Source: a virus. Taken from it: a stretch of DNA of 64,000 nucleotides. The first letter of the stretch is position 1. Every line of letters starts with the position of its first letter. The notes under the pieces were generated by a model that saw nothing but the letters and a program-made list of their open reading frames with translations, was not told the origin of the DNA and ran no database searches. The DNA lies in IMG/VR virus record IMGVR_UViG_3300029286_000037, positions 1-64,000 of that record, one strand, 5' to 3'. Positions 2,641-31,754 of this stretch are shown piece after piece. The position numbers and the translations under genes are program-made.

Positions 2641-5600
2641 CTACCTTCTTTTCTGTTTATCAAAGTACATTCTCTCAAAAGCTTGTTCTATAGCCGGTCG
2701 TATGCTCCTCAAAAACTCATTTGGATCACCACTTACAGAACCTATGTTAATCTGCACTGGGATATTCGGAGCTTGAGAACCTATAGCCCCCTTTGAGCCT
2801 ATACTCTTCATCATCTCAGATGCAGCAGTTCCAGCAAAGGCACCTAAATCACCCCCAACCCCTGCAGACATACTTTTAGCATTTACTACAACATCACCCT
2901 TACTTAGGAGAGCGTACCCCCCAGATGCCGCTTTATAGTCCTTATTCTGTTTCACATTCTCAGTTGGAGCTAATGCAGGGGCGGGTGACACTACCGGTTT
3001 GACCTCTATCTTTATGTCATCGACGTCTGTCAGCTTTTTAAGAGCTTTATTACCGTCTTTTGTAAGATCTAGGATTGCTTTATTATTAGCAGCGGCATCA
3101 GTCTTAGAAGCAGTCTCATTCTTTTTCTGTAGAAACGCTATCTTATCCTCATATTTAGCTTTAGTGTCATATACTTCCTTAGCATAATCCACAGAACTCT
3201 GAGCAAAATCAGTCTGCTGGAATATATTCTTACCAGCACTTGCTCTTTTCCAAGCTTCATTTTTCTCTATTTTTTTGTCTAATTTTTTACGTTTTGCAAC
3301 AGAGTCTCCATCCGTACCCGTTATCTTATCGCGTTCTGTTTGTAAAAGTAATCCCCTGTTAACTTCTTTTTCAAACGATTTATAGTTTACATCCTTCTTA
3401 AAATCCTCTCTGCTCTTAACGCCTCCAGGAATGATCCCGGCGATCTTCTCTACAAATTTAAGAATAACACCAGCACTTTGTGCTGTAGAAACGGCTGCAT
3501 TTACCAATAACTTTTGAGGGTCACTTTTAGCTACCAGGTACTTCATGTTCTCTGAAGCTATCCCAAGAAATTCTTCAATAGTGGTACTACTTTTTGCAAT
3601 CTGAGTCATTCTTTTAGCTTGGTCTTCATCACTAGAATTTATAACAACTTGAGTAGGATTTAAATCAGCTGTGGCAAGATCTGATGAAGCATTCTTAGTT
3701 TTTTCATAACCGTCAACGAGTACCTTTGTAACTGTTGAGGGTAATTTAGAAAAATCATCTGCAATCTTACCCATATCTAAATGTATCCCACCTTTAGTGC
3801 CATAATCGGATAACTCATTCTTCAACTCTTTTATATCATAAGACCCTTTAGCGGAATACTTCTGTAAGATATCTGAAATACCTTTACGCTGCTTATCATC
3901 TAAGGTACTTACAGTGTCTTTCATGCTTAACGCCATGCTCTCTACTTGACCTTTGTACATCTTAGCGGTAGTCATAAAGGTCTGAGCTAAGTCTTCAGAC
4001 ATACCTGCAGTAGTCTTAAGATAAATACTTATCGCAGCTTGGTCCCCGGAAAAGATATCAAGTCCTGCGTCCTTCATCATTGTCTTAGAAAGGTTACCTA
4101 ATAAAGGCATGATCTGATCCGAAACAGCCCCTAAAGAAGCTGCAGCATCTTGAAGTCTACCTTTTTTAGAATTCTCTAACCCCTCTTTATTTATTACTTG
4201 TAATCTCTTCAAGGCGGTTATTTGTTCCTCTTCAGCAGAGATAGCCGACTTAATACTATCTACTTCTTCAGAACTCTTCGCATTACCTAAGTCTTTTTTC
4301 TTACCTTCAAGTGTCTTCTGATGGTTCTCCAAATCTTTATTTACTTTTTCAAGACCCTTAGAAAAAACCTTAGTATATTCGTCAACACCACCTGTTAAGT
4401 TCATAAAGGCAACTCTAGTAGTAAGATCCATATTCGAGAATAAACCGGTCAATTCCTGCGTAGACTTAGCAGCATCCTTAAATCCCATACCACCCTGCTG
4501 CTGAAAATTTTTCAAGATACCAGACGCGGTAGTCAAAAATTTCCCATAATAACTTACAGCCTCTGCAGCAGCATATGTCGCTTGGTAAAACTTCTGAGAC
4601 TGTATCCCGGCGATGGAGGCATCATAGGATAAGACTTTAAAACTTTCTGCAGCATCATCTACACTCGATTTTAAATCCACCATCTGTTCCCCGAGCATTG
4701 ACCCAGCCTCTTCCATAGAGACACCAAAATCAAAGGACACCTTAGATGCCTTATCAATCATCCCACCGTACCCGCCCTGCACCTTACTAAGCACCCCTTG
4801 AAGACTCATACCTGACTCAGAGATACTCTGAAACATCCCTACAATATCTTCTGATTTTAAACCAAGTTTCATATTCCTTTGCATGTCGAATATGGAATTT
4901 GTAAATGCTGTCATTGCCTTATCTATATCCCCCATTGCCACAGTGGGGCCCTGAAGTTTTTTAAAGGTCTTATTAAAACTTTTTAAAAACTTATCAAGAT
5001 CATTTACTACATTAGCCACAGCTGACACTGCTGAAATAAGGAGTCCTATCCACCCCAGCTTACCTAGAGAACCTAATGCAGTACCTAAATTCTTAAGCAT
5101 ATTAATAGGGCCCAAAGCCCCTTTACCTGTAGCAGCCATGACTTTATTTAACTTACCTAGCTCTTCTGAGGAGCCTTTATGTGATTTAACCGCGCCCATC
5201 TTTTCAGAAAAACCAGTCTTAGTACTAAAGATGGCTTTCAAATTTGCTATCTGATCACCCTTTAAACCTACAGCCTTCTTTGCCTCGGCTACATGAAGAG
5301 ATCTACCAGCTTCCTTCCCGGCATTTTTACTAGCCTTTTTTTGATCAACCTCTCCTGCTGCTTTACCTGTCAACTCATCAACCATGGGGGACAACTTTCG
5401 AGGTAACTTTTTCTTAATGTCATCCCCCTTCATTGCATGCATGGACTCAACATCCCCAAGCTCTGCCTTCAACTCCTCAGCATTATCCTTATCCATCTTC
5501 CCACTCTGCACCTGTATATCAAGTTGCTTTTTCAATAGGGAAGTACGCTGCTTAGTGAGATTATTTAATTCCTCAAAAGAACTGAATTTTACTTTATCTA

Positions 5601-6099
5601 AATCAGCCAAATCTTTAAAGGTACTTTGTAATTTTTTTGCACTACCTTTAAAGGCGTTAACTTCATCAACAGCACCAGTTAATGTCTTTCGATACCCCTT
5701 AACGGCAGCATCACTGCCTGCTATTTCTTGTTGTAGTTTTTTTAACTGAATATTATTTTTTTTAATTTCTGCATTATTCTTCTTAGTATCTTTTGATAAT
5801 GTCTTAGTAACGGCACTGAGAGCTTTTTTTGCCTTTACTTGAGCATTAAACTTTTTTACGGTTCTCTCCAAACCAACATAAGATGTCTTGATTACTTGCG
5901 TCAATTGCTCCTCTTTAGCCATATAGTCCTTTTGAGAGGTAGCAGCAGCGGACAAAGCATCGGTATACTTTCTCCTACTATTTACACTATACATAATAGT
6001 ATTATTTAGACTTTTCTCAACTTCCAATTGATTCAGAGTAGCACGTTTTAAAGCCTCAATCTTCTTTATCTCATCATCGATTTCTCTTAAGTTAGCCAT
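2641..6099 (-). CDS. Tail tape measure protein
   Basis: At 1152 residues it is the longest gene of the tail block, and it sits between probable tail chaperones and baseplate proteins, the usual tape-measure position. The first 250 residues are Lys/Glu/Leu-rich coiled coil. A hydrophobic stretch near residues 335-365 (LGKLGWIGLLISAVSAVANV) could insert in a membrane. Long helical segments follow. The C-terminus carries the tape-measure-like ASGGYALLSKGDVVVNAKS segment. It should set tail length and pass into the cell during injection. No lysozyme or peptidase motif was noticed inside. The start overlaps the upstream gene's end by eight bases. Confidence 0.9.
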   Translation of the reverse strand: MANLREIDDEIKKIEALKRATLNQLEVEKSLNNTIMYSVNSRRKYTDALSAAATSQKDYMAKEEQLTQVIKTSYVGLERTVKKFNAQVKAKKALSAVTKTLSKDTKKNNAEIKKNNIQLKKLQQEIAGSDAAVKGYRKTLTGAVDEVNAFKGSAKKLQSTFKDLADLDKVKFSSFEELNNLTKQRTSLLKKQLDIQVQSGKMDKDNAEELKAELGDVESMHAMKGDDIKKKLPRKLSPMVDELTGKAAGEVDQKKASKNAGKEAGRSLHVAEAKKAVGLKGDQIANLKAIFSTKTGFSEKMGAVKSHKGSSEELGKLNKVMAATGKGALGPINMLKNLGTALGSLGKLGWIGLLISAVSAVANVVNDLDKFLKSFNKTFKKLQGPTVAMGDIDKAMTAFTNSIFDMQRNMKLGLKSEDIVGMFQSISESGMSLQGVLSKVQGGYGGMIDKASKVSFDFGVSMEEAGSMLGEQMVDLKSSVDDAAESFKVLSYDASIAGIQSQKFYQATYAAAEAVSYYGKFLTTASGILKNFQQQGGMGFKDAAKSTQELTGLFSNMDLTTRVAFMNLTGGVDEYTKVFSKGLEKVNKDLENHQKTLEGKKKDLGNAKSSEEVDSIKSAISAEEEQITALKRLQVINKEGLENSKKGRLQDAAASLGAVSDQIMPLLGNLSKTMMKDAGLDIFSGDQAAISIYLKTTAGMSEDLAQTFMTTAKMYKGQVESMALSMKDTVSTLDDKQRKGISDILQKYSAKGSYDIKELKNELSDYGTKGGIHLDMGKIADDFSKLPSTVTKVLVDGYEKTKNASSDLATADLNPTQVVINSSDEDQAKRMTQIAKSSTTIEEFLGIASENMKYLVAKSDPQKLLVNAAVSTAQSAGVILKFVEKIAGIIPGGVKSREDFKKDVNYKSFEKEVNRGLLLQTERDKITGTDGDSVAKRKKLDKKIEKNEAWKRASAGKNIFQQTDFAQSSVDYAKEVYDTKAKYEDKIAFLQKKNETASKTDAAANNKAILDLTKDGNKALKKLTDVDDIKIEVKPVVSPAPALAPTENVKQNKDYKAASGGYALLSKGDVVVNAKSMSAGVGGDLGAFAGTAASEMMKSIGSKGAIGSQAPNIPVQINIGSVSGDPNEFLRSIRPAIEQAFERMYFDKQKRR

Positions 6100-7162
6100 T
6101 TATAAGATCCTTTATCTCAGGCTGTATAATCTTGGTACTTATTTTCCGTAAAACCCGCTCTTTCATCCCAGTACCTTCTTTATCTTCCATAAAAGGGCTG
6201 TCAGGCCTTACTTGCTTCTTCTGTTCTAATGCCCTCTGTAATTCGAATTCAGATATCGGTTTAGAAGGCTCAAGGAGATCCAGATCTGCTGCTGCTATCT
6301 TTTCCCTGTACGCCTTCTGCCTATCGTCAACACTCTTTTTAATATTATCTGCTTTTTGCTTTTGATTCTCTAACCACTGGTCAATGTACAAGTCATGCTT
6401 ATCTTTATCCCCAGTCATCTGCCTATAAAGCTCTTTTACAAGATCCTCACGGGAAGATAAAGGTGTAGTCCACATCTCTCTTTTTTTATTATTTTCATTG
6501 ACTCTCTCTCTATCAACCCCATACTTGAATATTTCATCTCTAAGTTCTTTAAGCTCTTGCGTGTGTGTCTCATAATTTTTTGACAGCACCTTAGCACTCT
6601 TATAATTTGAGGCACTAACTACAAGGAGGGTTAAATTTAACTCCCTCCCATATTCCTGCTCCTCATCTAGCTTCTTATTTATATGTATCCAGCTCTCAAC
6701 CACACTACTAATCCCAATAGCGTCTATACCCTTAAATCCTGTGTAGGTCGCTCTGTCATAAGGGTCCATTACCGACCACAGGTACCTTGACCTTGGTGAG
6801 TAACAAAATCCCTCCAGAAACTCTAAAGAGTCGATGTACGCCTGGTTTAATTCATTAAGAGCGTCAACTATTCTAAAAACCACTAATGCAGGAGATTTTT
6901 TATAAAATTTAACAATCTCTGCAAGGTTTTCATGTCGATACTCTATTAAATTGACCCCATCTATCGCTATGGTACAGTATGCTAAACTGAAAAAGTTTGT
7001 TTTACGTATATCCTTATCTGAACAAAAAAAACTCATCTGATGCATCTCTTTATCAGATATATCTTTTATTAATAGATCATGACCATTAATAGAAATTCTA
7101 ACAGATAAAAACCCGTAGGTAATTATCCGTTCAATGTTCGAATAGGCGTCTTCTACTTTCAT
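6092..7162 (-). CDS. Tail protein between chaperone-like gene and tape measure
   Basis: A 356-residue protein with a mixed N-terminal half and a charged, helical, Lys/Glu/Gln-rich C-terminal half (about 195-340). It begins four bases after the preceding stop. Genes in this slot are often tail assembly chaperones or baseplate hub assembly factors, so I infer a tail assembly role. No family motif was recognised. I looked for a programmed frameshift joining it to the upstream gene, as in lambda G/GT, and saw no canonical slippery heptamer near the junction. Confidence 0.6.
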   Translation of the reverse strand: MKVEDAYSNIERIITYGFLSVRISINGHDLLIKDISDKEMHQMSFFCSDKDIRKTNFFSLAYCTIAIDGVNLIEYRHENLAEIVKFYKKSPALVVFRIVDALNELNQAYIDSLEFLEGFCYSPRSRYLWSVMDPYDRATYTGFKGIDAIGISSVVESWIHINKKLDEEQEYGRELNLTLLVVSASNYKSAKVLSKNYETHTQELKELRDEIFKYGVDRERVNENNKKREMWTTPLSSREDLVKELYRQMTGDKDKHDLYIDQWLENQKQKADNIKKSVDDRQKAYREKIAAADLDLLEPSKPISEFELQRALEQKKQVRPDSPFMEDKEGTGMKERVLRKISTKIIQPEIKDLING

Positions 7163-7901: not shown

Positions 7902-8612
7902 TTAAACTGCCAAACCACCACTGGGTTTACCAGTAGACGATGCTCCCGTAATAATATTACTTTCCGGATTTGCTATTCTTGATATAGCATTCATATTGAA
8001 ATAGTCACCTGTTTCGATATAGTCTTCACTTGTGCTGGCAATGATATCTGTAACATTCACAGTAACATTCTCCTGTACAAGAGCTGCATCTGCAGCATAC
8101 GAAACACCATAGTCAGAAATCCAGCAACCTTCAAAGTACGTAAGGATAGCGTCAAGCTCTCCATTAATACCACCAACGGTCATACCAGGGGCATCCCCAC
8201 CCTTACCTAAGATAACCGCAGGAAGACGGCTAATAACAACTTCCTGTACAATATCAAAAGGCCATTTGTGGTGACGAAGCGATCTAACTATACCATCAAT
8301 ACCACCTTTATACCCAAAGACCTGAAAGATCATTGAGAGGTATTGGGCAGTACGGTTGATGCTTATAGTCATTGGCTCTGTAGCCCCAGGAACTAACTCA
8401 GCTACATGGTCTCCAAAACCGATACCACGAACAGGTTCAATGGTACGCGATTCAGAGGGGTCGAATGTAGAAAGGACCCCTATCTGAAAAGCGGTAGTTT
8501 GGTTTCCATCAGCCGGGATAGCGTAAATTTTATTTTTTGAACTTATGACCGAAGCGGTTTCGGGGGTTACCCCTAACCGATGGACATAAGTATCTCTATC
8601 TCTAGCTGCCAT
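7902..8612 (-). CDS. Tail tube protein
   Basis: A 236-residue protein transcribed two genes after the sheath, the usual sheath-tube order. It is beta-rich, beginning MAARDRDTYVHRLGV, with no membrane segment or enzyme motif. Features fitting a tube fold are the FQIGVLSTFDPSESRTIEP and GATEPMTISINRT strands, followed by a helix and a strand-rich C-terminal half. Size and gene order support the call. The only competing idea is a second sheath-associated protein. It would stack as rings inside the sheath. Confidence 0.75.
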   Translation of the reverse strand: MAARDRDTYVHRLGVTPETASVISSKNKIYAIPADGNQTTAFQIGVLSTFDPSESRTIEPVRGIGFGDHVAELVPGATEPMTISINRTAQYLSMIFQVFGYKGGIDGIVRSLRHHKWPFDIVQEVVISRLPAVILGKGGDAPGMTVGGINGELDAILTYFEGCWISDYGVSYAADAALVQENVTVNVTDIIASTSEDYIETGDYFNMNAISRIANPESNIITGASSTGKPSGGLAV

Positions 8613-9481: not shown

Positions 9482-12418
9482 TTAAAGACTCTGTCTCAAA
9501 TTCAAGGTCACCACAATCCAGTTCAATGGAAAAACAGGACTATAGTAAGCTTCTACATCAAGAGTACTAGGATCTTGATCATTCTGCTTTACAGTGATCC
9601 CTGTAAAATTCACAATGAGCTCTTTCTGTTTTAGCGATTTGAAATAAGATCCCAAAGCATCTTTAACCTGTGATTGAATCTTAGGAAGATTCTTCACACC
9701 GATGAATCGATCAAGAACTCTTCGCACACCCTGCTGAACAAAGTGCTTAACCTCAACGATTCTAGGATCGCGTGTCAAAGCGGTAGAGGTGTCCGAAGTA
9801 AGATAAAAAAGGATCTTTATAAATGGTGATTGCTCCTCGAGAACAGTACACCCGGCATTAGCAACAAGAGCTGCGCTGACGCTATCCAATCTCCGATATA
9901 GTCTCTTAAATCCTACGATCGTAGAATTGGTAAGAGGAGTAGCAATATCTGAAACAGGAGAAACATCCCGACCAGCCACTGCTGCAGCGATAATAGAACC
10001 GTCGACAACATACTCTACTTCATTTCCGTATGCATCAACTATCCCAACGATAGCACCGTCTGGGTATATAGGAGTAAGCTTCTCGGTCTTGAGGTTCTGA
10101 ACCATCTGAATCACTTGATCAGAGGTTGTCCCTATTGCAAAACCAATGATACTTGTTCTCTCACTCTTATAACGAATACTTGACTGTATTGCGTTTGAAG
10201 ACTTAAGATAGCTGATAACCTCTGGATTCGTGGTTAGGGACTGCATTAAAGCAGGTCTCAATCCATTAGGAAGAGGTACATTAAATGCATCGATACCTTC
10301 TATGTAATCTTGAACAGAGGCATCAGTTCCACCGACAGTACGTTTAACCTGCTTCAGAGCCACAGCCTGAGTCCCGTTTAAGAAAGCCAAGTTTGCAGCC
10401 AAAGTAAGTTTGTTGTTGATGTCAAGAGGTCCAAAGTACCGAACTACATCTCTCATGTTCGTTAAGAACTTAGCGGTATAGTCTGTCTTCTCTTTGTCAA
10501 AAGTAACATAGTACAGATCCCCGTTTGCTGGTTCAACACCGCTCTTATTGAATGTGTCAATAATGACAGTATCATCAGTAGTGTCTACTGAACCACCGCT
10601 TGTAGTGGAAACTGTGAGGTTAACACCTGGGATAACTCTTACTATGCTTGACGAAACAGTGATATAAAGCTGCTGAGTAGAATCTGATACGGTAGGATCA
10701 CCTATATCATATCTTACGATCGAACCTACACCAGGATTAAAAGCACCAGAATCATTTGAAAAGGTAACTCTGAAACCAGAAGTTGGGTCAATATAAGTTT
10801 TTCCTACATATCCAATATTCTTATTGTTGGCAGTTACAGACCCTGTTCTGCCCGGAAGAGTAAAGCCAGTACCATGAAAAGAGGTAACAGTGAAAGAACC
10901 ATCACCATGAAAAGTACAAGCAACTCTTTCTACAGAACCCTTAAGCGGATTGACTTGGAAGTTTGGAGAACCTGCCCCAGCATAAATAGGGGTAACAGTT
11001 CCACTGATGTATCTGACTTCCATGGCATTACCGCTGACTCTTGATGATATAGTGTACTTACCTACACTCGCACCACCGGGAACCTTATTAGTAAGAGTCC
11101 ACTTGTCATCAACAAGGTTATTCTCACGATACGTAACATAAACAATTTCTTGAAGAGCCTGTGATGGAGCTGCGGCAAGCGTAACTTGATTACCTTGAAT
11201 CTTGGTTACAGGCACTGCACCGGCAGTATAAGCTGCTGCCCAGTTTGCCCCGACGTAGGCTAAAATATCAGAAGGATCTTCTGTAGAAACTCCAAGTCCC
11301 GAACCATCAACCGGAGTTGAAGGCAGAGAAAAGACTTTATTGCTATTTAGGTTGACTTGTTCCCCATTAGCATTAGTTTGAATAACTCCACCAATAGTAA
11401 GGGGGTTTACTGGAGAACCTACCCGACCATAAACAAAAGTATCTGTTAATGATTCAGACACGTTATCAACAAGAGCCACAGCCCCTGCAGTATACAAACC
11501 CTGTGCAATATGGGAAGACTGTCCCCAATGGATCTGATTAGAACCTGCAAGAACGCAATCTTCACCGATGGAATAGTCATTTGTATCTTGACTCAAACCA
11601 GCTTTAACCAGTGCGTCCACAACAGCAGCAGGAAGGATGTCAAAAGTATCCTGCCAAAGATTCGTGAAGTATGTAACAGTCAGCGTAGAACCTATAGCCG
11701 GTGCAGTTGCAAGTGTGAATACTGCATCAGAACCGTTAAGGTGCGTTACTGCAACCTCTGCCCCATTTACCTTAACCTGAAAGACTCTCACTTGACGTTC
11801 GTACTCATCGCCAAGAACGAGTGGATCCGGATTATAAAGAATAGTGGTTACACCATTAATGTCTGTATCAACAGCTGATCTTCCGCCATTGTCCCCCTTA
11901 ACTATTCTTGAGTTGTGAACTTTAAAGTTGATTGAGGTCCCATCTACCTGAGTAGAAATAACTTCCTCTTCAACATAAGTATCACGACGTTTAAAATAGT
12001 AGTTAGCTCTTACTTCATCACCAACTTGTGGCAGCTGAACTAAGGTAACTTCCCCTGTTAAACCGTTTAAAGAGTTGACAGCAACATTCTGCCCATTAAC
12101 TGTAACGATAACACTACTTGGTGAAGTAGCTACTTTACCGCTTCCATCACCTGTTACAACAGGTTTATTTTGAATTACGAAAGAATTCTCCATACCTGTT
12201 GAAAACTGGCTGCTAACATCTTCGTCAAGAATAAGGTTATCAGAAATCGCTGATGACCCTCTTACCATTTCAAAGTTGCCAACTCTAACCGTTTCCGCAG
12301 ATACGCCAACAAAGGCTGGTATACGAATATCACCGGATGCTGTAACTCCAGCAGCCTCAGTGTTAGTCTTAACATATACACCAGGAAATACGAAACTTTC
12401 TAAAGGTCCCATAGCCAT
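9482..12418 (-). CDS. Tail sheath protein (unusually large)
   Basis: The C-terminal 280 residues contain the sheath-type core: DPRIVEVKHFVQQGVRRVLD, then a KNLPKIQSQVKDAL helix, and an ending in which a VEAYYSPVFPLNWI strand leads to LRQSL. The N-terminus (SFVFPGVYVKT) also matches sheath proteins. At 978 residues it is much longer than the roughly 400-700 usual. The extra length is beta-rich insertions carrying at least two copies of a module of the form VNG-x-V...LNG...FTL..AP..GS.LTVTY that also occurs in the neighbouring 476-residue tail protein. It forms the contractile sheath. The promoter motif lies 98 bases upstream. Confidence 0.92.
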   Translation of the reverse strand: MAMGPLESFVFPGVYVKTNTEAAGVTASGDIRIPAFVGVSAETVRVGNFEMVRGSSAISDNLILDEDVSSQFSTGMENSFVIQNKPVVTGDGSGKVATSPSSVIVTVNGQNVAVNSLNGLTGEVTLVQLPQVGDEVRANYYFKRRDTYVEEEVISTQVDGTSINFKVHNSRIVKGDNGGRSAVDTDINGVTTILYNPDPLVLGDEYERQVRVFQVKVNGAEVAVTHLNGSDAVFTLATAPAIGSTLTVTYFTNLWQDTFDILPAAVVDALVKAGLSQDTNDYSIGEDCVLAGSNQIHWGQSSHIAQGLYTAGAVALVDNVSESLTDTFVYGRVGSPVNPLTIGGVIQTNANGEQVNLNSNKVFSLPSTPVDGSGLGVSTEDPSDILAYVGANWAAAYTAGAVPVTKIQGNQVTLAAAPSQALQEIVYVTYRENNLVDDKWTLTNKVPGGASVGKYTISSRVSGNAMEVRYISGTVTPIYAGAGSPNFQVNPLKGSVERVACTFHGDGSFTVTSFHGTGFTLPGRTGSVTANNKNIGYVGKTYIDPTSGFRVTFSNDSGAFNPGVGSIVRYDIGDPTVSDSTQQLYITVSSSIVRVIPGVNLTVSTTSGGSVDTTDDTVIIDTFNKSGVEPANGDLYYVTFDKEKTDYTAKFLTNMRDVVRYFGPLDINNKLTLAANLAFLNGTQAVALKQVKRTVGGTDASVQDYIEGIDAFNVPLPNGLRPALMQSLTTNPEVISYLKSSNAIQSSIRYKSERTSIIGFAIGTTSDQVIQMVQNLKTEKLTPIYPDGAIVGIVDAYGNEVEYVVDGSIIAAAVAGRDVSPVSDIATPLTNSTIVGFKRLYRRLDSVSAALVANAGCTVLEEQSPFIKILFYLTSDTSTALTRDPRIVEVKHFVQQGVRRVLDRFIGVKNLPKIQSQVKDALGSYFKSLKQKELIVNFTGITVKQNDQDPSTLDVEAYYSPVFPLNWIVVTLNLRQSL

Positions 12419-12558: not shown

Positions 12559-13038
12559 TTAACTCTCTGCTATAGAGCCCGATGAATCAAATTGTGGTAT
12601 ACCCTTCTTTACTCTTTCCGTTCTATGTTCCTGTAATGCCTCTGAAAACTCTTTTCTCACTGATCTTTCTTTATTATCCCCAAGATGCATTATCGGACTG
12701 TATTTGCCATCAGCATCTTTCGGAATGTTAAGCGCTTCTGGGGTCTTACCTTTCCATCTCTTCTGCTGGCGGGCTTCATATCTACCCTTCCACTTCGCAT
12801 CATACCCCTCCCACCGCTTCTCTGACGCTTTACCTACTACCATATCAATTTCTTTATTGGTAGCGATAGTGTCTCTTCTTGAATCAAGTTCACTATGTAC
12901 CCCAAAGGTAGAAGCTGGTTTGCGTATTGATAACTCCCCACAGAGCTTACACTTCTGATCCTTATCCCTATTGATATAGGAACTTAGCTCCTCAAACTCA
13001 TGACCACACTTACCACACTTGTATTCATATAATGGCAT
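12559..13038 (-). CDS. FmdB-type zinc ribbon protein (copy 1)
   Basis: The start MPLYEYKCGKCGHEFEEL with C8/C11 and C30/C33 (KCKLCG) is the FmdB regulatory-protein family zinc ribbon. The remaining residues are basic, Trp/Arg/Lys-rich and predicted helical (about 75-110). The family is small and its biochemical role is not settled. A second FmdB protein is encoded at 31314-31754. It stands alone between two copies of the promoter motif, so it is probably a single-gene transcript or read through into the sheath. Confidence 0.8.
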   Translation of the reverse strand: MPLYEYKCGKCGHEFEELSSYINRDKDQKCKLCGELSIRKPASTFGVHSELDSRRDTIATNKEIDMVVGKASEKRWEGYDAKWKGRYEARQQKRWKGKTPEALNIPKDADGKYSPIMHLGDNKERSVRKEFSEALQEHRTERVKKGIPQFDSSGSIAES

Positions 13039-13144: not shown

Positions 13145-14575
13145 TTACATATACCTCGGGTAACCTATTCTTGGGTAGGAGACTTCAAAGGGAACACTGT
13201 TAGGTCTTATACGCAGCTCAAGTATTCTACCTTGATTAGTCAAGATATAATCCTTTGAGCTTACTACCTGGTATATCTTTGTATCAAAGTCCACTATCTC
13301 TGTAAGAAACGGAATAAACTTTTTCCACTCAGTCATTATCTGGAGAGTTATCCCGTGGTGATAGTACAAATCCCCTGTATTCTCATCATACGGTTCTTCA
13401 GATTCCCCAGAAGGATCCATTTCTTCTATTGTCAAACCCTCATCAATCAACAATAAACGCCTATTACCCCATATGTCTTCTATAAGGTGGTCTGTTAAAT
13501 TCGCCAGCTGCTTCGGATCACGGGCTACCACATCAATCTCAAAGGACATCTTATAGTGACCACTATTCATATTAGCCACAGGTTCCCGCTGAGAATAAAC
13601 AAGGACAACAGCCTTATCTCCCACAGTTACCTGGTTACTAAAAGAAAGGATAATCCCAGGGAGGGCTTCGTTTATATAGTGGAACTCACTGGGGATAGTA
13701 AATGGACCTAAAGTTTCCCCAACCCATCTATATGTGGCATAAAGAGTATTATTGGTCTCAAGCGGGCTTAGGAAAGTGATAAGCCCAGTTTGATCTATTG
13801 TATAGTCAGTGCCCTTTTCCAAATAAAATTTATTACTGAGACTTGTCTTCTTTGTATACAAAGTATCAAAATCACCATATAAGTTACCGTGAACTAATTG
13901 AGCTGTTAACTCAGTGCCGGTAGTCCTTGCTATAACTTTTTCATCTTTAATAATATAAAAAGGATCAATAACAAATTCTGTAGGAGTGACTATCTCGATG
14001 TAGTATCTCCCAGGGGGGGTTAAGTTACTATAGTAATAAGATACTGTGAGCTGACTTCCAACGGTCGGAGCCATAGACAGAGCAAAGGTACCCGAAGCCC
14101 CATCTAAAAACTCAGGGAAGACTGTTTGACCGTTTAGTAAAACGGAGATCTGCCTAAAGTTATCTGCAAGAACTGTGTTATTATACCCTGACAAGACATG
14201 CTTTTTTGATACAGTGAAAAATCTATTCGTACCGACAGACGAAGTCCCTGATATCTGAGATGATAAATCTTCATTCTTTTGATACCCGGTTAGATTATTA
14301 AAATCTTCCCAAACCCATTCAAGAAAATTTCCCTCAAAATTTTCAGCACGTGCTTTAATCGTGTGACTCTTCAAAACACCAGCGTGATCATCAGCAGATA
14401 GCTTTATTCTAGATGAAGAGGCATTCTTAAGGACCACCCCAATCATAGGGCGCTCTTTGTATGGAAACTTGTGGTAAACTTCTACCTTATCCCGAAATAG
14501 CTGATGCCTTTGAACAGAACCTGTCAATTCATCCATAATACGGGATTTTACGACTCTTAATAAATTATTTTCCAT
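13145..14575 (-). CDS. Tail/baseplate protein sharing a module with the sheath
   Basis: A 476-residue beta-rich protein. Residues about 143-185 (SVLLNGQTVFPEFLDGASG then FALSMAPTVGSQLTVSYYYS) match the Ig-like module repeated in the sheath. A similar strand pattern occurs around 250-285 (DYTIDQTGLITFLSPLETNN). The C-terminal part has a HYKMSFEIDVVARDPKQLA helix-strand segment of the kind seen in tail completion and terminator-associated proteins. Its place next to sheath and tube supports a tail role. It could be a tail terminator or completion protein, but I would not assert that. Confidence 0.6.
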   Translation of the reverse strand: MENNLLRVVKSRIMDELTGSVQRHQLFRDKVEVYHKFPYKERPMIGVVLKNASSSRIKLSADDHAGVLKSHTIKARAENFEGNFLEWVWEDFNNLTGYQKNEDLSSQISGTSSVGTNRFFTVSKKHVLSGYNNTVLADNFRQISVLLNGQTVFPEFLDGASGTFALSMAPTVGSQLTVSYYYSNLTPPGRYYIEIVTPTEFVIDPFYIIKDEKVIARTTGTELTAQLVHGNLYGDFDTLYTKKTSLSNKFYLEKGTDYTIDQTGLITFLSPLETNNTLYATYRWVGETLGPFTIPSEFHYINEALPGIILSFSNQVTVGDKAVVLVYSQREPVANMNSGHYKMSFEIDVVARDPKQLANLTDHLIEDIWGNRRLLLIDEGLTIEEMDPSGESEEPYDENTGDLYYHHGITLQIMTEWKKFIPFLTEIVDFDTKIYQVVSSKDYILTNQGRILELRIRPNSVPFEVSYPRIGYPRYM

Positions 14576-14630: not shown

Positions 14631-14638
14631 AAAAAATA

Positions 14639-14668
14639 GGGGCTGGGAGAGACATTTCTCCCAGCCCC
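14639..14668 (-). terminator. Strong intrinsic terminator after actin-like gene
   Basis: A perfect 12-base GC-rich stem (GGGGCTGGGAGA and complement) with a six-base loop, followed on the minus strand by TATTTTTTAATAA. It ends the unit carrying the actin-like ATPase and lies just before the next promoter motif. Confidence 0.88.
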
Positions 14669-14676
14669 CTGCAGAA

Positions 14677-14715: not shown

Positions 14716-15726
14716 TTAGTCGTTCATTGCTGCAATGAGAAGTCCCTTAGCAACATCTGCTAAAGGGTCCGATGCCATACGTATTTCAGAAATATTAATT
14801 GGAAAACTATCCTGCTCTTTTTCAAATTCTTTTCTGAAAAATTCAAGGAAATTTTTAGCTTTTGTTGTCCCACCACTGATCACCCAGGGGATTTGATCGG
14901 GAAGCTCTATCTTGCCATTATCTTTTTTAAACTCTCTCTTTATACTGTCTATCACGTAATGTATAAGATTCTTGTAATAAACAATGATAGCTTCTCTTTC
15001 TCTTAGCTGTCTTGGGTCACCATCTGTTGGATCAAGGAGATTTACACCACGTTCCTTAATAGACATCAATCTGGTGGCGGTACTTCCTACAGCCTTTGCT
15101 GCAGATTGATCCACCCAATCACCACTTCTGCTTACACTAAAAGCCATACCGACCATGGTCTGAAAAACAAGAGCAGTATTTACCATACCAGCACCGAAAG
15201 AAGATGCAAGAGCGGTAAAGCCATCCATGCTGCAGTTTGAGTACACTATTGCTGCTGCCTCATTCATAGCAGTAGCCTTATACCCGAAAGACTCTACAAT
15301 TTTTTTGAACATTGCCTCATGGTAAATCACATCCATATCTTTATCTATGGATTTTGCAGGAACAGAAAAAAAGACAGATTCATTTTCAAACTTAGGAGAA
15401 CTGAGGATATTCTTTAAAAGAATTACAAGCATTCTTTCTGCATCATGCTCACCTGAAGATATTACACCCTGATTTAAAGGTCTTCGAACTTCTTTTTTTA
15501 GAAGATTTGCAACACTAAGAGCAGGTTCCCCTACTATGTAAATGTAATCTTTTTCCTGTACGTATGAAACACTGGACATTTTCAGCATATTGATAATTGA
15601 TTGATCCGCTTCTACGTCTAAAAAAGCATCACGAATGGATTTAATTTCTACAGACGCATCTTCATCTTTAAGATCTTTTGTAGCACTTACCAAAAAGCAA
15701 GTACCTATGTCAAGTCCAACACTCAT
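14716..15726 (-). CDS. Actin-like (ParM/Hsp70-fold) ATPase
   Basis: A 336-residue protein with the actin/Hsp70/ParM ATPase layout: a phosphate-1 motif at the N-terminus (SVGLDIGTCFLVSAT), a phosphate-2-like loop at about 173-183 (SSFGAGMVNTALVF) and an adenosine motif at about 278-290 (PWVISGGTTKAKNF). The Asp normally leading phosphate-2 (DxGxGT) is Ser here, so hydrolysis may be slow or absent. Length suits a ParM/AlfA-like filament former rather than full Hsp70. It is co-transcribed with the coiled-coil gene 15 bases upstream and lies among tail genes. It could move or position phage DNA, or act as a chaperone-like virion protein. The fold call is good; the role is open. Confidence 0.8.
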   Translation of the reverse strand: MSVGLDIGTCFLVSATKDLKDEDASVEIKSIRDAFLDVEADQSIINMLKMSSVSYVQEKDYIYIVGEPALSVANLLKKEVRRPLNQGVISSGEHDAERMLVILLKNILSSPKFENESVFFSVPAKSIDKDMDVIYHEAMFKKIVESFGYKATAMNEAAAIVYSNCSMDGFTALASSFGAGMVNTALVFQTMVGMAFSVSRSGDWVDQSAAKAVGSTATRLMSIKERGVNLLDPTDGDPRQLREREAIIVYYKNLIHYVIDSIKREFKKDNGKIELPDQIPWVISGGTTKAKNFLEFFRKEFEKEQDSFPINISEIRMASDPLADVAKGLLIAAMND

Positions 15727-15740
15727 ATATCCTCCTATAT

Positions 15741-16442
15741 TTATTTAGATTTTAATCTCAATTCTTTAAGTTTCCTTAAAGAGTCAGCCACGTTATCTCC
15801 GGAATTTATCGTTCTTACTTCCAAGTTAATATGGGAATTTGCATCCTCTACTCGAATACTCGGAACATAAATTTCTTCTTCTCTTCTGTACGCATCTTCC
15901 TTGATTGCAGAAGAATTACTGCTGGAGCTATTAGTTCCAGACCTACTAATAATTCCTTCTAGCTTCTCTAGAATACCCTCACTACTGTTTACAGCTATTT
16001 TTGCCTCAATACCTTTTAAAGCGTCTTGGATAAAGGATAGCCCGGTAGTTGCTGAATTACTTTCTAATTTTTCCAGTCTGTCTAAAATAACTAATAAAGC
16101 GTCGTTACTTTTTGATGAAGATTGATCTCTCAAACTTTTTTCCAAAATCTTAATTCGCTCTAATAAAATATCTACTTTTTGATCTGGAACAGATTCCTCA
16201 GTGGGAATCTCAGGGAGCAGCTCACTCTCAGAGGATACTATAGGAGTAATAGGATCAAAAGACCGTGTTGTGTCTTCTGATTTTTTAAGAACTATTAAGG
16301 CCCTTCTCTCGATAGCACGTTTTAAATCAACAGAATTTTCATACTGAATATCAGTATAATCCTTCTGTTGTTTATAGTATATGCAATCGTTAAGATCCTT
16401 AAGTTCTACCTTTTTTGGAGAGTTACCTATAACATAGAACAT
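15741..16442 (-). CDS. Coiled-coil protein paired with the actin-like ATPase
   Basis: A 233-residue protein with a small globular N-terminus (MFYVIGNSPKKVELKDLND, then a YTDIQYENSVDLKRAI segment), a heptad-rich middle (about 90-165: ILLERIKILEKSL, LDRLEKLESN, GILEKLEGI), a Ser-rich linker and a basic C-terminal helix (ADSLRKLKELRLKSK). It ends 15 bases before the actin-like gene in the same transcript. By analogy with plasmid partition operons it could be an adaptor or filament partner, but no DNA-binding motif is visible and this is inference. Confidence 0.6.
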   Translation of the reverse strand: MFYVIGNSPKKVELKDLNDCIYYKQQKDYTDIQYENSVDLKRAIERRALIVLKKSEDTTRSFDPITPIVSSESELLPEIPTEESVPDQKVDILLERIKILEKSLRDQSSSKSNDALLVILDRLEKLESNSATTGLSFIQDALKGIEAKIAVNSSEGILEKLEGIISRSGTNSSSSNSSAIKEDAYRREEEIYVPSIRVEDANSHINLEVRTINSGDNVADSLRKLKELRLKSK

Positions 16443-18558: not shown

Positions 18559-19935
18559 CTAATACATTATCGATTCGAATGTAACGGTACGGCCCTTCAA
18601 TTGGTACTGTTCCGGTATCTCCGGTTTCCCTGTTATCGTTGGACTAGCATCTGAAGGCTTACTTGTACGATAAGCATTCCATGCTGCTGGAACACTTAAC
18701 CCACCATCTACCGAGACCGTATATCTCGGATCCTTTCTATCCAGTGGTGCCAACATAAAATGCTGCTGGTATATCGCCCCACGAGATCCTTGAGGATTAA
18801 CATGCGCGATAGATAGTCGGTCGTTATTCTGACGAATCACAAAATCTCGATCATTAAGTAGCGGATAGGGCCCAGTCCACGTTTGCCAATCATACGAAAT
18901 ATGAAGACCCATATCCATCAGCTGAACTGTTTTTTCAGTTTCAGGAGGAGCAATAATTATATCATAAGGCCCCTCATACCCACCTATGTAGCCTGTGCCG
19001 AAGCATAATTTACAGTCATTCTGCGCACTACGGTACTGCTCATCCCAACAAGGACAGCGCTCACCAGCCCATTTTCTTATAAAGAGCTTTACGCGTTCCC
19101 CACCTTGTTCCAGTATCCACCTATTACGTCGAATACTCTCCGCCCATATCCAATCTACTTTTTCCATGTCATAAAGGCTAACTGCACTAACTTCGGTAAG
19201 AGGAGTCTCAATCATTTCATCATTAGATTTTTGAACAGCTACGGTAGTACACTTATAATAAATTTTCCTATTTGCATCCAATTGGATATTGTTATTGATA
19301 TAAGTATACGAGACTCTTATCTCACCCCCACTACTTAAAATGGGGAGCACTGGCGGATCAAGTCTGTTAAACTGGTTATTATATGTTTGTTTGTTTATTA
19401 AGAAGATCTCACCAGTCTCACCCCTTACCTTAAATGCGGGGACTGTTTTAAAGGCTTCCAGAGACGTCGGACGAATATCAACCTTTACATGTTTAGGGTG
19501 ATTCGCTATTTCTCCATTTGTACCTGTAATGACCAGCGGTTTATTATATGTATGAACAACCCAATCACCGTTTGCATTAGTACCGGCTAATAACCTTCCA
19601 CCGGCTACCGGGTCTTCCTGATCTTCCCATACTTCCCTGGTCTCATCCCTGTAATAAAGGGCACCTATTGGAACAGTATTTAACTTAGTGTATGGGCCTT
19701 CAGGAGTATCGTACGCTCTATAAATATTTATACCTAAGACATTATAACCATTGTGTTCTATGTACTCTGCAGTAGAATCCCACCTTATATCAATTACACC
19801 AATAAGGTACGGGCTTGTGACATTTACATTTTTAGGACCTAAAGGAAGAGTAAGGGGTTTGTCACTATTCCATCTATAAGGCAGCTTAAAATCAGGCTTG
19901 CCATAATTATCGGTAAAATTCTGCGGATTAGTCAT
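18559..19935 (-). CDS. Baseplate/structural protein with zinc-knuckle insert
   Basis: A 458-residue protein that begins with an FN3-like region (IDIRWDSTAEYIEHNGYNVL, IYRAYDTPEGPYTKLN). Around 290-320 a Cys cluster, ERCPCWDEQYRSAQNDCKLC followed by FGTGY, resembles a DnaJ-type zinc knuckle (CxC...CxxCFGTG). The C-terminal third is beta-rich. Proteins with this layout occur in phage baseplate blocks. It lies between the beta-helix protein and the zinc-finger gene. It probably connects the baseplate to fibres; the exact role is not known to me. Confidence 0.65.
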   Translation of the reverse strand: MTNPQNFTDNYGKPDFKLPYRWNSDKPLTLPLGPKNVNVTSPYLIGVIDIRWDSTAEYIEHNGYNVLGINIYRAYDTPEGPYTKLNTVPIGALYYRDETREVWEDQEDPVAGGRLLAGTNANGDWVVHTYNKPLVITGTNGEIANHPKHVKVDIRPTSLEAFKTVPAFKVRGETGEIFLINKQTYNNQFNRLDPPVLPILSSGGEIRVSYTYINNNIQLDANRKIYYKCTTVAVQKSNDEMIETPLTEVSAVSLYDMEKVDWIWAESIRRNRWILEQGGERVKLFIRKWAGERCPCWDEQYRSAQNDCKLCFGTGYIGGYEGPYDIIIAPPETEKTVQLMDMGLHISYDWQTWTGPYPLLNDRDFVIRQNNDRLSIAHVNPQGSRGAIYQQHFMLAPLDRKDPRYTVSVDGGLSVPAAWNAYRTSKPSDASPTITGKPEIPEQYQLKGRTVTFESIMY

Positions 19936-26953: not shown

Positions 26954-27130
26954 ATGGATAGAGTAAATTTTCACCTTACTGAGGGTGAGATACACGGATT
27001 GAAGGTCATATCTGACTTGACTGGGGTACCACGTGCCGAAATAATAAGACGCGCGGTCGACGATTATATCAATCGAAAAAAGTTTGAAGGTTTTACAGGA
27101 CTTGAGAATATCAAAGAGGTGTACGCATGA
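26954..27130 (+). CDS. Ribbon-helix-helix (RHH) regulator
   Basis: A 58-residue protein with an RHH layout: an N-terminal beta strand (MDRVNFHLTEGE), helix 1 (IHGLKVISDLTG) and a turn plus helix 2 (VPRAEIIRRAVDDYINR). A GGGGAGA site precedes the ATG by three bases. Its TGA overlaps the next ATG (ATGA), so it is translationally coupled to the glycosyltransferase and probably controls this island. It resembles the minus-strand RHH protein at 49016-49201, which also adjoins a plus-strand cassette. Confidence 0.75.
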   Translation: MDRVNFHLTEGEIHGLKVISDLTGVPRAEIIRRAVDDYINRKKFEGFTGLENIKEVYA

Positions 27131-30100
27131 AAACCTCAAACTACTTGCTTGGTTTAAATATTATTTGCGGTCCTGATGATAAAGATGTTTTGGACAGGTG
27201 TTTAAAAAGTTGTCAGGGAGGCTTATTTGATGAGATTGTAGTAACCCTTGCTATGGGTAATGAAGACCCAGAGATAAAGGCTTTAGCTGAGAGTTACGGG
27301 GCTAAAACATTTTTCTTCAAGTGGATCTCTGATTTCGGTGCTGCCAGAAACTTTTCTTTTAGTAAGAACACTTCCAAATACATTATGTGGCTGGATTCTG
27401 ATGATATCATAAAACCTTCGGAATATAAAAAGCTCTTGGACCTTAAACCAAAGATTAATACCTGGGACATTGTCGTTCTTAACTACGTTTATAGTCATGA
27501 TGAAAATGATGCCCCCGTATTAACACTTCCCAGAGAACGTATCGTAAAGAACTGTGCGCATATAAAGTGGCATGACCCTATCCACGAGTACATGAATCTT
27601 GATGTCCCACAGAATAAATTGCACCGTGAGAATATAAACATTGACCACTACAGAATCAGGATGCACAACCCCGCCCGTAATATTGAGGCACTTAAAAAAG
27701 TCTATGATGCAGGCGGATGCTCTGAAAGAATTAAATTCTATTACGGTAAAGAGTTGTCTGATTTCGGTATGTGGGAAAAAGCAATCGAGGTACTTGAGCC
27801 TTATATAAAAAAGGGTGCTGACTTTGCAGATAACCTTACAACAGCTTGCATCCGTTTATCCAAGTACTATTTTGATAAATCGGATTTCACTTCCGCAAAG
27901 ACGTACGCTTTAGAAGGTATCCGTTTTAATAGCATCTATGCTGAAAACTATGTCGTACTAGGGAACATCTTTGAATATGAAAAAGATTTTGACACTGCTG
28001 CTGCTTATTATTTGGAAGCGCTTAATAAGACGCTAGATGGTGGTATGTCTCAGATAGTTGACTATTACGGTTTCATTCCTGCAGCTAAATTAGCCCTACT
28101 GTACTATACGAAAAAAGAGTATGACAAGGGTATAAAGTTTTGCAACTTAGCTCTCAAACATAAGCCAGGTAACGAACAGATGGTTGCATTACAGAAGGTG
28201 ATAGACAACGAGGTAGCGAGACTATCAAAAGGAGCTCTGCTGCAGACACCGGATATCGAAAATTTGAAAGATTTTTTATCAAAATGTTCTTTCACTATGG
28301 ATATAAAAAATAATAATCTTGAATTCTGCGACATTCGTTTAAAGAAGATCGTGAATTTAAAGGTATCCTGGTTTATCCCCACATTAAATCTCAATGACCC
28401 CGGTGTCAGGATAAGAAGAAGTAATATCTGCTGTGAAATGCAAAAGATGGGGATAGAAAGTTCTATCATAACTAATTACTATGGAATAAATCCCTATGAA
28501 ATTAGAAACATGGTGGGAGACTCTTCTGTAGCAATCTTTACACAAATGAGTAAAGATGACTTAGAGATCATGAAGCACATTAATGCTTCAGGTATAAAAT
28601 GCGTCTTTGATCATTGTGAGGCTATTTTCAACTACCCCTTTCAGCGTGATTGTATGAATGAAGCAGATCTCATTACATGCTGTTCAACGAAGCTTATGGA
28701 GCTTACAAACGAACAGGGGTATACGCGTGCAGTAGTGCTTAAGGACGCTGTAGAAAAAACAGAAACCAATACCATTTACAGTGATAGGTATCCAAAACCC
28801 AAAGCTGTTTACATGGGCATGGGGGGCAACTCCTGGCTGGTTAATGATTGGTTAAAGGACACAATTGAGGAAGCTGGCTACGAATTAGTCACCATAACAG
28901 AATGGGACAATGCGACTAAACGTTGGAACCCAGAAACATGGGCAGAAGACATGCTAGAGTGTGACGTAGTACTCTGTCCTCAAAGAGTTGATGTCCAACC
29001 GGCAAAGAGCTCTGTAAAAGCAACTACTGCTATGGCACTCGGCTTACCTGTATTATGCTCCCCTCTTCAAGCCTATAAAGAGGTTGTAGTCTCTGGTGAG
29101 AACGGGTTTATCTGCGAGACAAAAGAAGAGTGGAAAGAAGCACTTATTAAATTGAAGGATAGCAATTTAAGAAGAATAATAGGTGAAGCTGGTAGAAAGT
29201 CAGTGGGGGAATACAGCTTAAGAGCTATTACAACACAGTGGCAGGAGAATCTTACTAAGCTAATTAATAATCAATTTGCTTTCCCAGAGCCTCCTGAGGT
29301 AGTTGATACAAAAGTTAGATCATTAGTTGATATTATTATCGCCAGCTATAATAACGTTGACTACTTGAAAATGTGTGTATCATCCATCCTTATGAATACC
29401 CTACACCCATTTCATATTATCATCTCAGATGGTGGGAGCGATAAAGAGACTTGGGAATATCTGTCAGCATTGAAGGGGATTACCGTTGTAGGCGACCCGG
29501 GGAAAAGGATGTCTTTTTCTGAAACATGTAATGCCGGTATACTTGCTTCGAACACTAAGTATTTTGTGATCCTGAATTCTGACGTCATAGTTTCAAAATG
29601 CTGGCTTACTAGCCTGGTACACAAAATGGAAACTGTAGATCGTTTAGCTTCTTGCGGTGTGCTTAGTAATTGTGATAGAGGCTGGCTGCATGATGCCCCG
29701 AATAAGCCTTCATACCCTATGCTCCTGGAGAAATCTAAGATAGATCTTCACCCCGCTATGAAGATCAACGAGATTAAACCACATGTAGAAGAACTTTATA
29801 AGTTTATGGAGGACTCTAATAAACAGCATAAGGGTGTCTTTGTGAAACAAGAATGGGTCGCAGCTTATGCCACTATCTTTGCACGTTGTGCCATAAATGA
29901 GGTAGGCCTTTTTGACCCCCTTTATAAGAATGGGTGTGAGGATCTTGACCTTATAGCACGGTTATCAAAGTTTGGGTATGCGACAGGACAGGCTATTGAT
30001 TCTTTTATATTCCACTTCGGCGGGATAAGTCGCATGGCATACCAGGATGAGAATCGAGAGTCCTATAACGAAGAAGACCGTGCAAACCATTTAAAGTACA

Positions 30101-31248
30101 AAAATAAGTGGGAAAAGCGTAGGGTAGTCATCTGGACAGGCCCCGCATGGGAGCCGTGGAATAAAGCCAAGGTAGATGAAGGTATGGCAGGTTCTGAGAC
30201 CTGGGCGTCATATCTAGCACGGGAGTTTGTCAAAAAAGGTTTTCAGACAACGATCTACAATGACCTACTTATTGAAGATAAAAATGGGACCCTCCTTGAC
30301 CCCGTTATGAATGAAGTAGGGGAAAAAATCGGGGATGTCATTTATCGAGACCATAAAAATCTTCAGTCTGATGTAGAATATGGAATAGTCGACTATTTCA
30401 TATCTTCCCGTTCTGTCGATCCTTTGAAAATGAATATCCATTCTTTGAGAAACTTTGTAATGATCCACGATGTCTGGTTATCACATGATAAGAAATTTGA
30501 CATTATGACCTGGCGAGTAGATAAGTACGCCTATTTGTCTGAGTGGCACAAAGAGTTCTTAATGCAGCATCACGGTCTTATAAGCGATAAGATGTTCCTC
30601 ACTGCAAATGGTCAGGATTTCGAACTTTATGCTGATGTAGATCGCTATGAAAAAAAGAATCAAGCAGTATACTCCTCAAGCCCAGATAGAGGGCTGTATC
30701 AACTTTTAAAGATGATGCCTTTGATTAGGAAAGAAGTACCAGACTTTGAACTAATCGTAGCATACGGGTTTTATAACTGGGAGACCATGGCACGTTCCCG
30801 TAATGATCTTGAAGGTCTAAGATTTATTGCGGAAATAAAAAGTCTTATGGAGCAGCCCGGGGTAAAATACGTTGGCAGAGTCAGCAAGAAAGAATTAGCT
30901 GAGTACGAAAAAGAATCTAAGGTATGGTTATACCCAACTTGGTTCTCTGAGACTTTCTGCATAACCGCCTGCGCAGCTGGGTTAGCTAAATGCGCTATTG
31001 TCGGTACTGACTTTGCTGGACTACAAACTACTGTAGGGTCTTCTGGTGTGCTTCTACCTCCTGATGGACTAAGTAGAAATGGTGAGTATCCTCAGCAGTA
31101 TATTGACAGTTTTGTTAAAGAGGCTGTAACAATGCTTTCTGATAAACAGTACCGACTTGAGTGGTCTGAAAAAGCATATAACAAAATGAAGATGTACAGT
31201 TGGGATAATATAGCTAGAGGTTGGATGAAGGAATTTGGTATAAAGTAA
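27127..31248 (+). CDS. Giant multi-domain glycosyltransferase (GT2-TPR-GTB-GT2-GT4)
   Basis: A 1373-residue protein. Residues 1-110 are a GT2 (WaaE-like) domain with WLDSDDII near 88. About 190-370 are TPR-like helical repeats. About 412-715 form a GT-B-like domain (CPQRVDVQPAKSSVKATTAM, GENGFICETKEEW). About 734-985 are a second GT2 (IIIASYNNVDYLKMCVSSIL, then VILNSDV and GCEDLDL). About 998-1373 are a GT4 (VVIWTGPAWEP, KVWLYPTWFSETFCITACAA). Such fusions make or transfer surface glycans. It might modify host envelope, phage fibres or DNA. No signal peptide, so cytoplasmic. It sits in a plus-strand island next to minus-strand fibre genes and ends at a strong hairpin. Confidence 0.88.
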   Translation: MKTSNYLLGLNIICGPDDKDVLDRCLKSCQGGLFDEIVVTLAMGNEDPEIKALAESYGAKTFFFKWISDFGAARNFSFSKNTSKYIMWLDSDDIIKPSEYKKLLDLKPKINTWDIVVLNYVYSHDENDAPVLTLPRERIVKNCAHIKWHDPIHEYMNLDVPQNKLHRENINIDHYRIRMHNPARNIEALKKVYDAGGCSERIKFYYGKELSDFGMWEKAIEVLEPYIKKGADFADNLTTACIRLSKYYFDKSDFTSAKTYALEGIRFNSIYAENYVVLGNIFEYEKDFDTAAAYYLEALNKTLDGGMSQIVDYYGFIPAAKLALLYYTKKEYDKGIKFCNLALKHKPGNEQMVALQKVIDNEVARLSKGALLQTPDIENLKDFLSKCSFTMDIKNNNLEFCDIRLKKIVNLKVSWFIPTLNLNDPGVRIRRSNICCEMQKMGIESSIITNYYGINPYEIRNMVGDSSVAIFTQMSKDDLEIMKHINASGIKCVFDHCEAIFNYPFQRDCMNEADLITCCSTKLMELTNEQGYTRAVVLKDAVEKTETNTIYSDRYPKPKAVYMGMGGNSWLVNDWLKDTIEEAGYELVTITEWDNATKRWNPETWAEDMLECDVVLCPQRVDVQPAKSSVKATTAMALGLPVLCSPLQAYKEVVVSGENGFICETKEEWKEALIKLKDSNLRRIIGEAGRKSVGEYSLRAITTQWQENLTKLINNQFAFPEPPEVVDTKVRSLVDIIIASYNNVDYLKMCVSSILMNTLHPFHIIISDGGSDKETWEYLSALKGITVVGDPGKRMSFSETCNAGILASNTKYFVILNSDVIVSKCWLTSLVHKMETVDRLASCGVLSNCDRGWLHDAPNKPSYPMLLEKSKIDLHPAMKINEIKPHVEELYKFMEDSNKQHKGVFVKQEWVAAYATIFARCAINEVGLFDPLYKNGCEDLDLIARLSKFGYATGQAIDSFIFHFGGISRMAYQDENRESYNEEDRANHLKYKNKWEKRRVVIWTGPAWEPWNKAKVDEGMAGSETWASYLAREFVKKGFQTTIYNDLLIEDKNGTLLDPVMNEVGEKIGDVIYRDHKNLQSDVEYGIVDYFISSRSVDPLKMNIHSLRNFVMIHDVWLSHDKKFDIMTWRVDKYAYLSEWHKEFLMQHHGLISDKMFLTANGQDFELYADVDRYEKKNQAVYSSSPDRGLYQLLKMMPLIRKEVPDFELIVAYGFYNWETMARSRNDLEGLRFIAEIKSLMEQPGVKYVGRVSKKELAEYEKESKVWLYPTWFSETFCITACAAGLAKCAIVGTDFAGLQTTVGSSGVLLPPDGLSRNGEYPQQYIDSFVKEAVTMLSDKQYRLEWSEKAYNKMKMYSWDNIARGWMKEFGIK

Positions 31249-31313: not shown

Positions 31314-31754
31314 CTATATGGCAGCTTCTTTAGCAGCTTTCCACTTTCGGTCATCGATACCAGATACTTTTGAGGTATTATTTTCTTTTGCAATATGTGT
31401 ATCAAAAGAAGAAGTACTCATACCCGCCTCAGAAGCTAACTTCTTAGCATCAGACCAGGTCCCTGTTTCTACTCCAGCAACGTTTGGCTGTAACTTAGGG
31501 CCTGAACCGTACCTCTCAATTTGACGCATTTCAAGCTCTGAGTTCTGCTTTCTTTTGTCCCGACTTATCTTATAAGTCTGTGCTTCAGTCCACTGTTTGA
31601 AAAGAAAACCACCATTAAAATTGCGGGAAATGAGTCGTTCCATCTTATCAGAAGACTTACAGTTGGAACACTGGATCTCAGGGTCTTCTTTGATAGAATG
31701 AACAACCTCATCAATAAAGCCACAAGAATTGCATTTGTAATCGTACGTAGGCAT
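31314..31754 (-). CDS. FmdB-type zinc ribbon protein (copy 2)
   Basis: The N-terminal ribbon MPTYDYKCNSCGFIDEVVHS with C8/C11 and C29/C32 matches the FmdB family, like the protein at 12559-13038. The C-terminal part is different, with a KKLASEAGMSTSSFDTHIAK helix-turn-like segment. It is the last gene of its unit, just before a terminator. Role unknown; both copies lie in structural operons, so an assembly function is possible. Confidence 0.78.
   Translation of the reverse strand: MPTYDYKCNSCGFIDEVVHSIKEDPEIQCSNCKSSDKMERLISRNFNGGFLFKQWTEAQTYKISRDKRKQNSELEMRQIERYGSGPKLQPNVAGVETGTWSDAKKLASEAGMSTSSFDTHIAKENNTSKVSGIDDRKWKAAKEAAI

Follow-up and report, generated by a model that had tools for sequence, protein, structure and literature searches.

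The stretch of DNA analysed here (the window) is 64,000 nt long, covering positions 1 to 64,000 of the IMG/VR virus record IMGVR_UViG_3300029286_000037, and coordinates are those of the window unless another record is named. Two adjacent ORFs on the minus strand, both found where an earlier note on this DNA had placed them, code for a 336-aa actin-like ATPase of the volactin (PF25216) family (14716..15726) and for a 233-aa partner or putative adaptor (15741..16442), which has an N-terminal domain of ~54 aa, a coiled coil, a C-terminal YVP...LRKLKELR motif, and a helix at residues 218-232. The partner ORF and the actin ORF are separated by 14 nt, with a Shine-Dalgarno-like GGAGG ahead of the actin ORF, and an intrinsic terminator (14638..14669, minus strand), made of a 13-pair stem and then ATTTTTTT, lies 3′ of the actin gene. 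These features agree with the shared transcript that the earlier note had claimed, co-transcription itself being predicted from the sequence.

The pair is surrounded by virion genes on the same strand. Downstream lie a 476-aa conserved tail-block protein that is terminator-like by position (13145..14575), an FmdB-type zinc-ribbon protein (12559..13038; PF09723, E=1.6e-12), the tail sheath protein (9482..12418; phrog_2839, E=6.8e-22, and PF17482), and a tube-like protein assigned by its position after the sheath (7902..8612). Upstream lies a connector-like virion protein of 458 aa (18559..19935) with weak matches to PHROG virion structural families. The location in a tail block, as the earlier note had it, is thus confirmed.

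No Rfam RNA was found in the 12-20 kb part of the window. A second FmdB-type zinc-ribbon protein is encoded at 31314-31754; the first one is a fixed component of the tail block, placed immediately ahead of the sheath. At 34956-36236 there is a protein with a 2′-5′ RNA ligase/Acb1-like domain (PF13563, 7e-9; PF23474, 6.7e-8), which is a possible anti-CBASS factor, and at 27127-31248, on the plus strand and so opposite to most structural genes, a protein of 1373 aa that contains TPRs and several glycosyltransferase domains.

The actin-like protein and its phosphate-2 serine

The 336-aa ORF is a full-length member of the volactin family: it matches the Pfam Volactin profile over its entire length (1-321/321, E=1.5e-63) with 215.7 bits against a curated cut-off of 35 bits. 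Its PF06723 (MreB_Mbl) score of 22 bits lies under the 27-bit cut-off and its TIGR00904 score is 16.7 bits where 365.75 are required; with these scores, and with Ser176 in place of Asp, the protein falls outside MamK/MreB. PHROGs holds no family for it, and no relative of solved structure was found by sequence search. The AlphaFold model (pLDDT 92.6, pTM 0.89) has the four-subdomain actin fold with its nucleotide cleft. Among solved structures it is closest to the MamK double filament 5ljv (Z 29.3, rmsd 3.0, 298 residues); BeeR, MreB (Z 26), and actin (Z 25) come next, and closterovirus Hsp70s are also among the matches. The earlier note's reading of an actin-like ATPase is upheld by this fold and by the family match, and where the note had named a closer match to a non-actin fold as a refuting outcome, the nearest fold was of the actin type.

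Both motifs that the earlier note had listed are present, the phosphate-1 LDIGT at residues 5-9 and the adenosine motif SGGTT at residues 284-288, together with GDWVD and a catalytic-type Glu, E156 (NEAAAIVY). Comparison with relatives of 90-91% identity gave a dN/dS of 0.04, indicating strong purifying selection. At the position of the phosphate-2 Asp of other actins there is a serine, S176, within SSFGAGMVN (phosphate-2 motif SFGAGMVN), which conforms to the Ser-type pattern S-x-G-x-G-M-x-N. The earlier note was right about this replacement, but the serine turns out to be a hallmark of the family rather than the mark of a degenerate site. In a motif alignment of relatives, 85 from phages and 95 from cells, in which readable columns were counted, the Ser is invariant (85/85 phage and 94/94 cellular sequences, including haloarchaeal volactins and bacterial members), the connect-1 Glu is likewise invariant, and DxGT, GGT, and GDW[IV]D show little or no variation. 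Because the Ser is constant across the family, the reading of the protein as a degenerate ATPase was rejected.

The same change is published for Mad28, which carries Ser for the phosphate-2 Asp, forms ATP-gamma-S-dependent polymers in vitro and filaments in cells, and has been described with an SxGxG phosphate-2 and an xExx connect-1 motif (PMC10653835). Mad28 probably belongs to the same family as the phage actin and archaeal volactin. Since Mad28 forms filaments with the same Ser and probably shares the family, the "undescribed filament" proposed in the earlier note falls within a described filament family, that of volactin; what appears to be undescribed is the phage tail-block form and its adaptor, and searches of the open-access literature on volactin, Mad28, jumbo, huge and mega phages, and phage actins found no account of a phage tail-block actin system. 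By analogy with these relatives, we infer that the 336-aa protein may bind ATP through the standard actin cleft and form filaments.

Relatives, tail-block context, and losses

Scans of IMG/VR yielded 480 relatives, and the 80 best were retained; INPHARED contributed two records, from uncultured phages of 485 and 595 kb. The phage relatives lie mainly on large contigs of uncultured phages, up to 619 kb, and all 20 large phage records examined (183-619 kb) carry the family, usually in single copy. Cellular relatives come from haloarchaea, Omnitrophota, Planctomycetota, Magnetococcales, and others; one nominally "bacterial" match (L010) is a piece of a phage tail block. In the tree, the phage copies form one clade (support 100/97), which also holds the ambiguous MAG contig L011, and MamK is separate (100/100). 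A divergent phage copy (L009), from the 595-kb phage LR756511, falls outside the main phage clade. This actin has neither a partner nor a detected sheath, and therefore the family is not always tail-linked; around its gene (12001-13020 of L009) no sheath, partner, or connector was detected, and the next protein has a charged, coiled-coil-like stretch. It is possible that this divergent phage volactin represents a second acquisition.

Other arrangements were also observed. The 297-kb record IMGVR_UViG_3300025141_000016 has two actin copies (L114 and L137), one in a sheathless block and the other on a sheath-bearing stretch, reflecting either two tail modules or a chimeric assembly. At 4378-6498 of locus L007, from the 258-kb contig IMGVR_UViG_3300005965_000002, a LAGLIDADG-type intein lies in the actin phosphate-2 loop, directly 3′ of the conserved Ser; inteins often insert in essential nucleotide-binding sites. 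Tandem pairs of volactin-family genes occur in Omnitrophota contigs (L015, L019-L021, L026-L028, L030-L033, L035, and L036).

Gene order was compared in 84 phage loci, which are mutually related, include a few duplicates, and are all metagenomic, many of them fragments. The order is connector-like protein, (a protein of ~180 aa), partner, actin, 476-aa terminator-like protein, zinc ribbon, sheath, and tube. The partner is 5′ of the actin on the same strand in 79/84 loci, directly abutting it in 49; the terminator-like protein is 3′ of the actin in 72/84, the zinc ribbon is present in 72/84 and the connector-like protein in 66/84, and the sheath follows downstream in 71/84. Contig ends account for some of the missing genes, and other cases belong to a sheathless group. 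The actin's pairwise distances are correlated with those of the tail proteins (Mantel r 0.76-0.86, with 0.86 for the connector-like protein), the tail proteins giving 0.83-0.91 among themselves. A single clade, a fixed position, and co-varying distances led us to reject a recent cargo gene. The sheathless group, including a 205-kb contig, retains connector, partner, and actin, and in most cases the tube gene as well. A sheath-specific role was rejected on these grounds; because actin and partner persist beside a tube gene without a detected sheath, what they are linked to is the tail as a whole.

Blocks were also sampled in the reverse direction, drawn by their connector-like or terminator-like protein irrespective of actin, and the actin was present in 59/68 and 54/58 of them, respectively. 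Among ten actin-negative contigs checked, a family member was found elsewhere in the record only in L216, which is rearranged, and a 536-kb actin-negative contig had none anywhere in its record. Mapped on a connector-like protein tree, the missing actins require seven changes, and supported branches force six of these. The actin has thus been lost in about seven lineages and is therefore not essential to tails.

The coiled-coil partner

The adjacent 233-residue coiled-coil protein reported in the earlier note is a real, conserved partner. Its coiled coil is predicted at residues 88-168, its N-terminal domain (residues 1-54; 16281..16442, minus strand) is modelled with a pLDDT of about 97, and its dN/dS is 0.11-0.13 against the phages used for the actin comparison. 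Comparison with solved structures gave weak matches only (best Z 4.0), no match to a DNA-binding family was found in the partner, and it is absent beside the cellular volactin copies. A full-length HMM drifted on frame-shadow ORFs; profiles of the divergent partner groups were therefore compared with one another, and this second check showed the N-terminal domain to be common to them (P=1.2e-14; controls negative). This domain resembles small phage proteins of unassigned role, among them phage G gp158 and also a DUF2635 protein. In phage Mu, a DUF2635 gene presumably stands just ahead of the sheath gene. The gp158 locus was considered as a possible actin system and rejected, the two genes 3′ of gp158 being unlike actins when read by eye.

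The other end of the protein follows the actin. A C-terminal FIP...ALKxLR motif (in the window, residues about 194-233; 15744..15863, minus strand) is present in 162 of the 164 actin-positive blocks with a partner; the remaining two end in tails with FIP or YVP, apparently divergent versions of the motif. Five distinct actin-negative contigs retain the N-terminal domain, and the motif is found in none of them (0/5; Fisher p=2e-8, relatedness of the sequences being ignored). Among the about seven losses of actin, four separate ones kept the N-terminal domain and lost the C-terminal motif, and the partner was not found in the other three. The simplest reading of these patterns is that the N-terminal domain serves the tail and the C-terminal motif serves the actin, so that the partner apparently links actin to tail: the correlated loss points to actin binding through the C-terminal motif, and the N-terminal domain is the putative tail-binding part. 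Four loss events are a small sample, and a shared third factor can also produce a correlated loss of actin and motif.

A candidate tail-linked filament system and its known counterparts

Our analysis suggests that these phages use actin filaments of their own to handle tails or virions in the host cell. The reading we prefer, to which we assign a probability of about 0.52, is that the phage encodes a volactin-type actin filament system that is linked to the tail and has the partner as its adaptor. Actin and partner would be made late, together with the structural genes, as the 14-nt gap and the terminator imply. The 336-aa protein, with ATP in its cleft, would assemble into a filament, and the N-terminal domain of the partner would dock on the nascent tail or head-tail connector while its coiled coil drives oligomerisation and the conserved helix and motif at its C-terminus bind the actin. 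The filament could then tether, position, or gather tails or virions in the cell, handling its cargo much as ParM-ParR handles plasmids and MamK or Mad28 handles magnetosomes, the cargo here being the tail; it would aid the assembly or packing of large virions and not be strictly required. More specific forms of this reading are tentative. It is conceivable, though we would not bet on it, that an adaptor residing on the tail recruits filaments of the volactin type to sort, align, or pack tails or virions, which would be the first cytoskeleton dedicated to virion tails. Equally tentative is the joint proposal that the tail is the cargo of a cytoskeleton whose actin is near-universal in one large tailed-phage lineage. 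The position in the tail block could also reflect late timing only.

The rival explanation that we take most seriously, under which the earlier note's virion chaperone would also fall, is a virion-assembly factor or a virion component: the actin-fold ATPase, as a monomer or short oligomer, would serve the growing tail or neck as a nucleotide switch, would be brought there by the partner, and might remain part of the virion. The tail-block context and the adaptor data speak for it as well, the phosphate-2 change could favour slow hydrolysis, and the closterovirus HSP70 homologue, an actin-fold ATPase tied to the virion tail, is a distant precedent. However, the nearest relatives, volactin and Mad28, form filaments, the solved fold that comes nearest is that of the MamK filament and not Hsp70, and a substrate-binding domain is absent here; we regard this explanation as unlikely. 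The pair might instead segregate or position replicating phage DNA in the manner of ParM-ParR-parC or the prophage AlpC-AlpA, with the partner as a DNA-binding adaptor, given that the phage actins known so far (AlpC) position DNA and that a two-gene operon with an adaptor would suit such a task. It is an improbable role for a partner that matches no DNA-binding family and whose N-terminal domain resembles small phage-genome proteins, in a pair embedded in, and co-evolving with, tail genes rather than replication genes. A takeover of the host late in infection, in which the phage protein would poison a volactin/MreB-type cytoskeleton of the cell or turn it to another use such as keeping cells large, would suit the MreB-like fold and the relatives in bacteria and archaea but is very improbable for a single old phage clade, as opposed to repeated host captures, that sits in the tail block and is coupled to a partner there.

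Two kinds of phage cytoskeleton are known so far, PhuZ, a tubulin by which capsids are moved, and the ParM-like actins, whose cargo is DNA; the earlier note's remark that tail genes are an unusual place for a phage cytoskeletal ATPase is borne out. If the tail-linked filament system is real, it would be a third kind, in which a volactin/Mad28-type actin is coupled to the tail module, and it would bring together the archaeal, bacterial, and phage members of an actin family that has received little study. The system predicts that a C-terminal partner peptide of roughly 40 residues binds the actin, and it is relevant to the organisation of very large virions inside cells; in PhiPA3, bouquet positioning is independent of PhuZ (PMC9067925).

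The PhuZ spindle of nucleus-forming jumbo phages is likewise a cytoskeleton of very large phages that moves virion parts. However, PhuZ has a tubulin fold and the window's protein an actin fold, and no tubulin was found in the 20 large phage records that carry this actin (0/20), so the protein is not PhuZ-like. With ParM-ParR and with AlpC-AlpA, a prophage actin-adaptor system for DNA (PMC4446434, PMC5539076), the pair shares a plasmid or phage origin and the joint coding of an actin and a small adaptor, but in those systems the adaptor binds DNA, the actin is of another family, and the genes lie outside the tail genes. MamK offers the closest solved fold and a filament with adaptor proteins, whereas its phosphate-2 is Asp-type and it is 18% identical in sequence. 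Mad28 of deep-branching magnetotactic bacteria, which localises magnetosome chains alongside coiled-coil proteins (PMC12748827), has the Ser-type phosphate-2, judged from the published motif; a candidate Mad28, which belongs to the family and is encoded close to mamK in a genome of magnetotactic type, is 33% identical to the phage actin and is preceded by predicted coiled-coil ORFs. The cargo of Mad28 is the magnetosome chain, while the genes in the window lie in a phage morphogenesis block and not in a magnetosome gene cluster. The closest counterpart is volactin (VolA) of Haloferax volcanii, which forms dynamic filaments in vivo and has a role in cell shape (PMC10869688). The phage protein is homologous to it over the full length, with about 35% identity to a Haloferax member and the same phosphate-1, connect-1 Glu, Ser-type phosphate-2, GDW[IV]D, and GGT motifs; unlike the volactin gene, the phage gene lies in a tail block, where it has a partner of its own.
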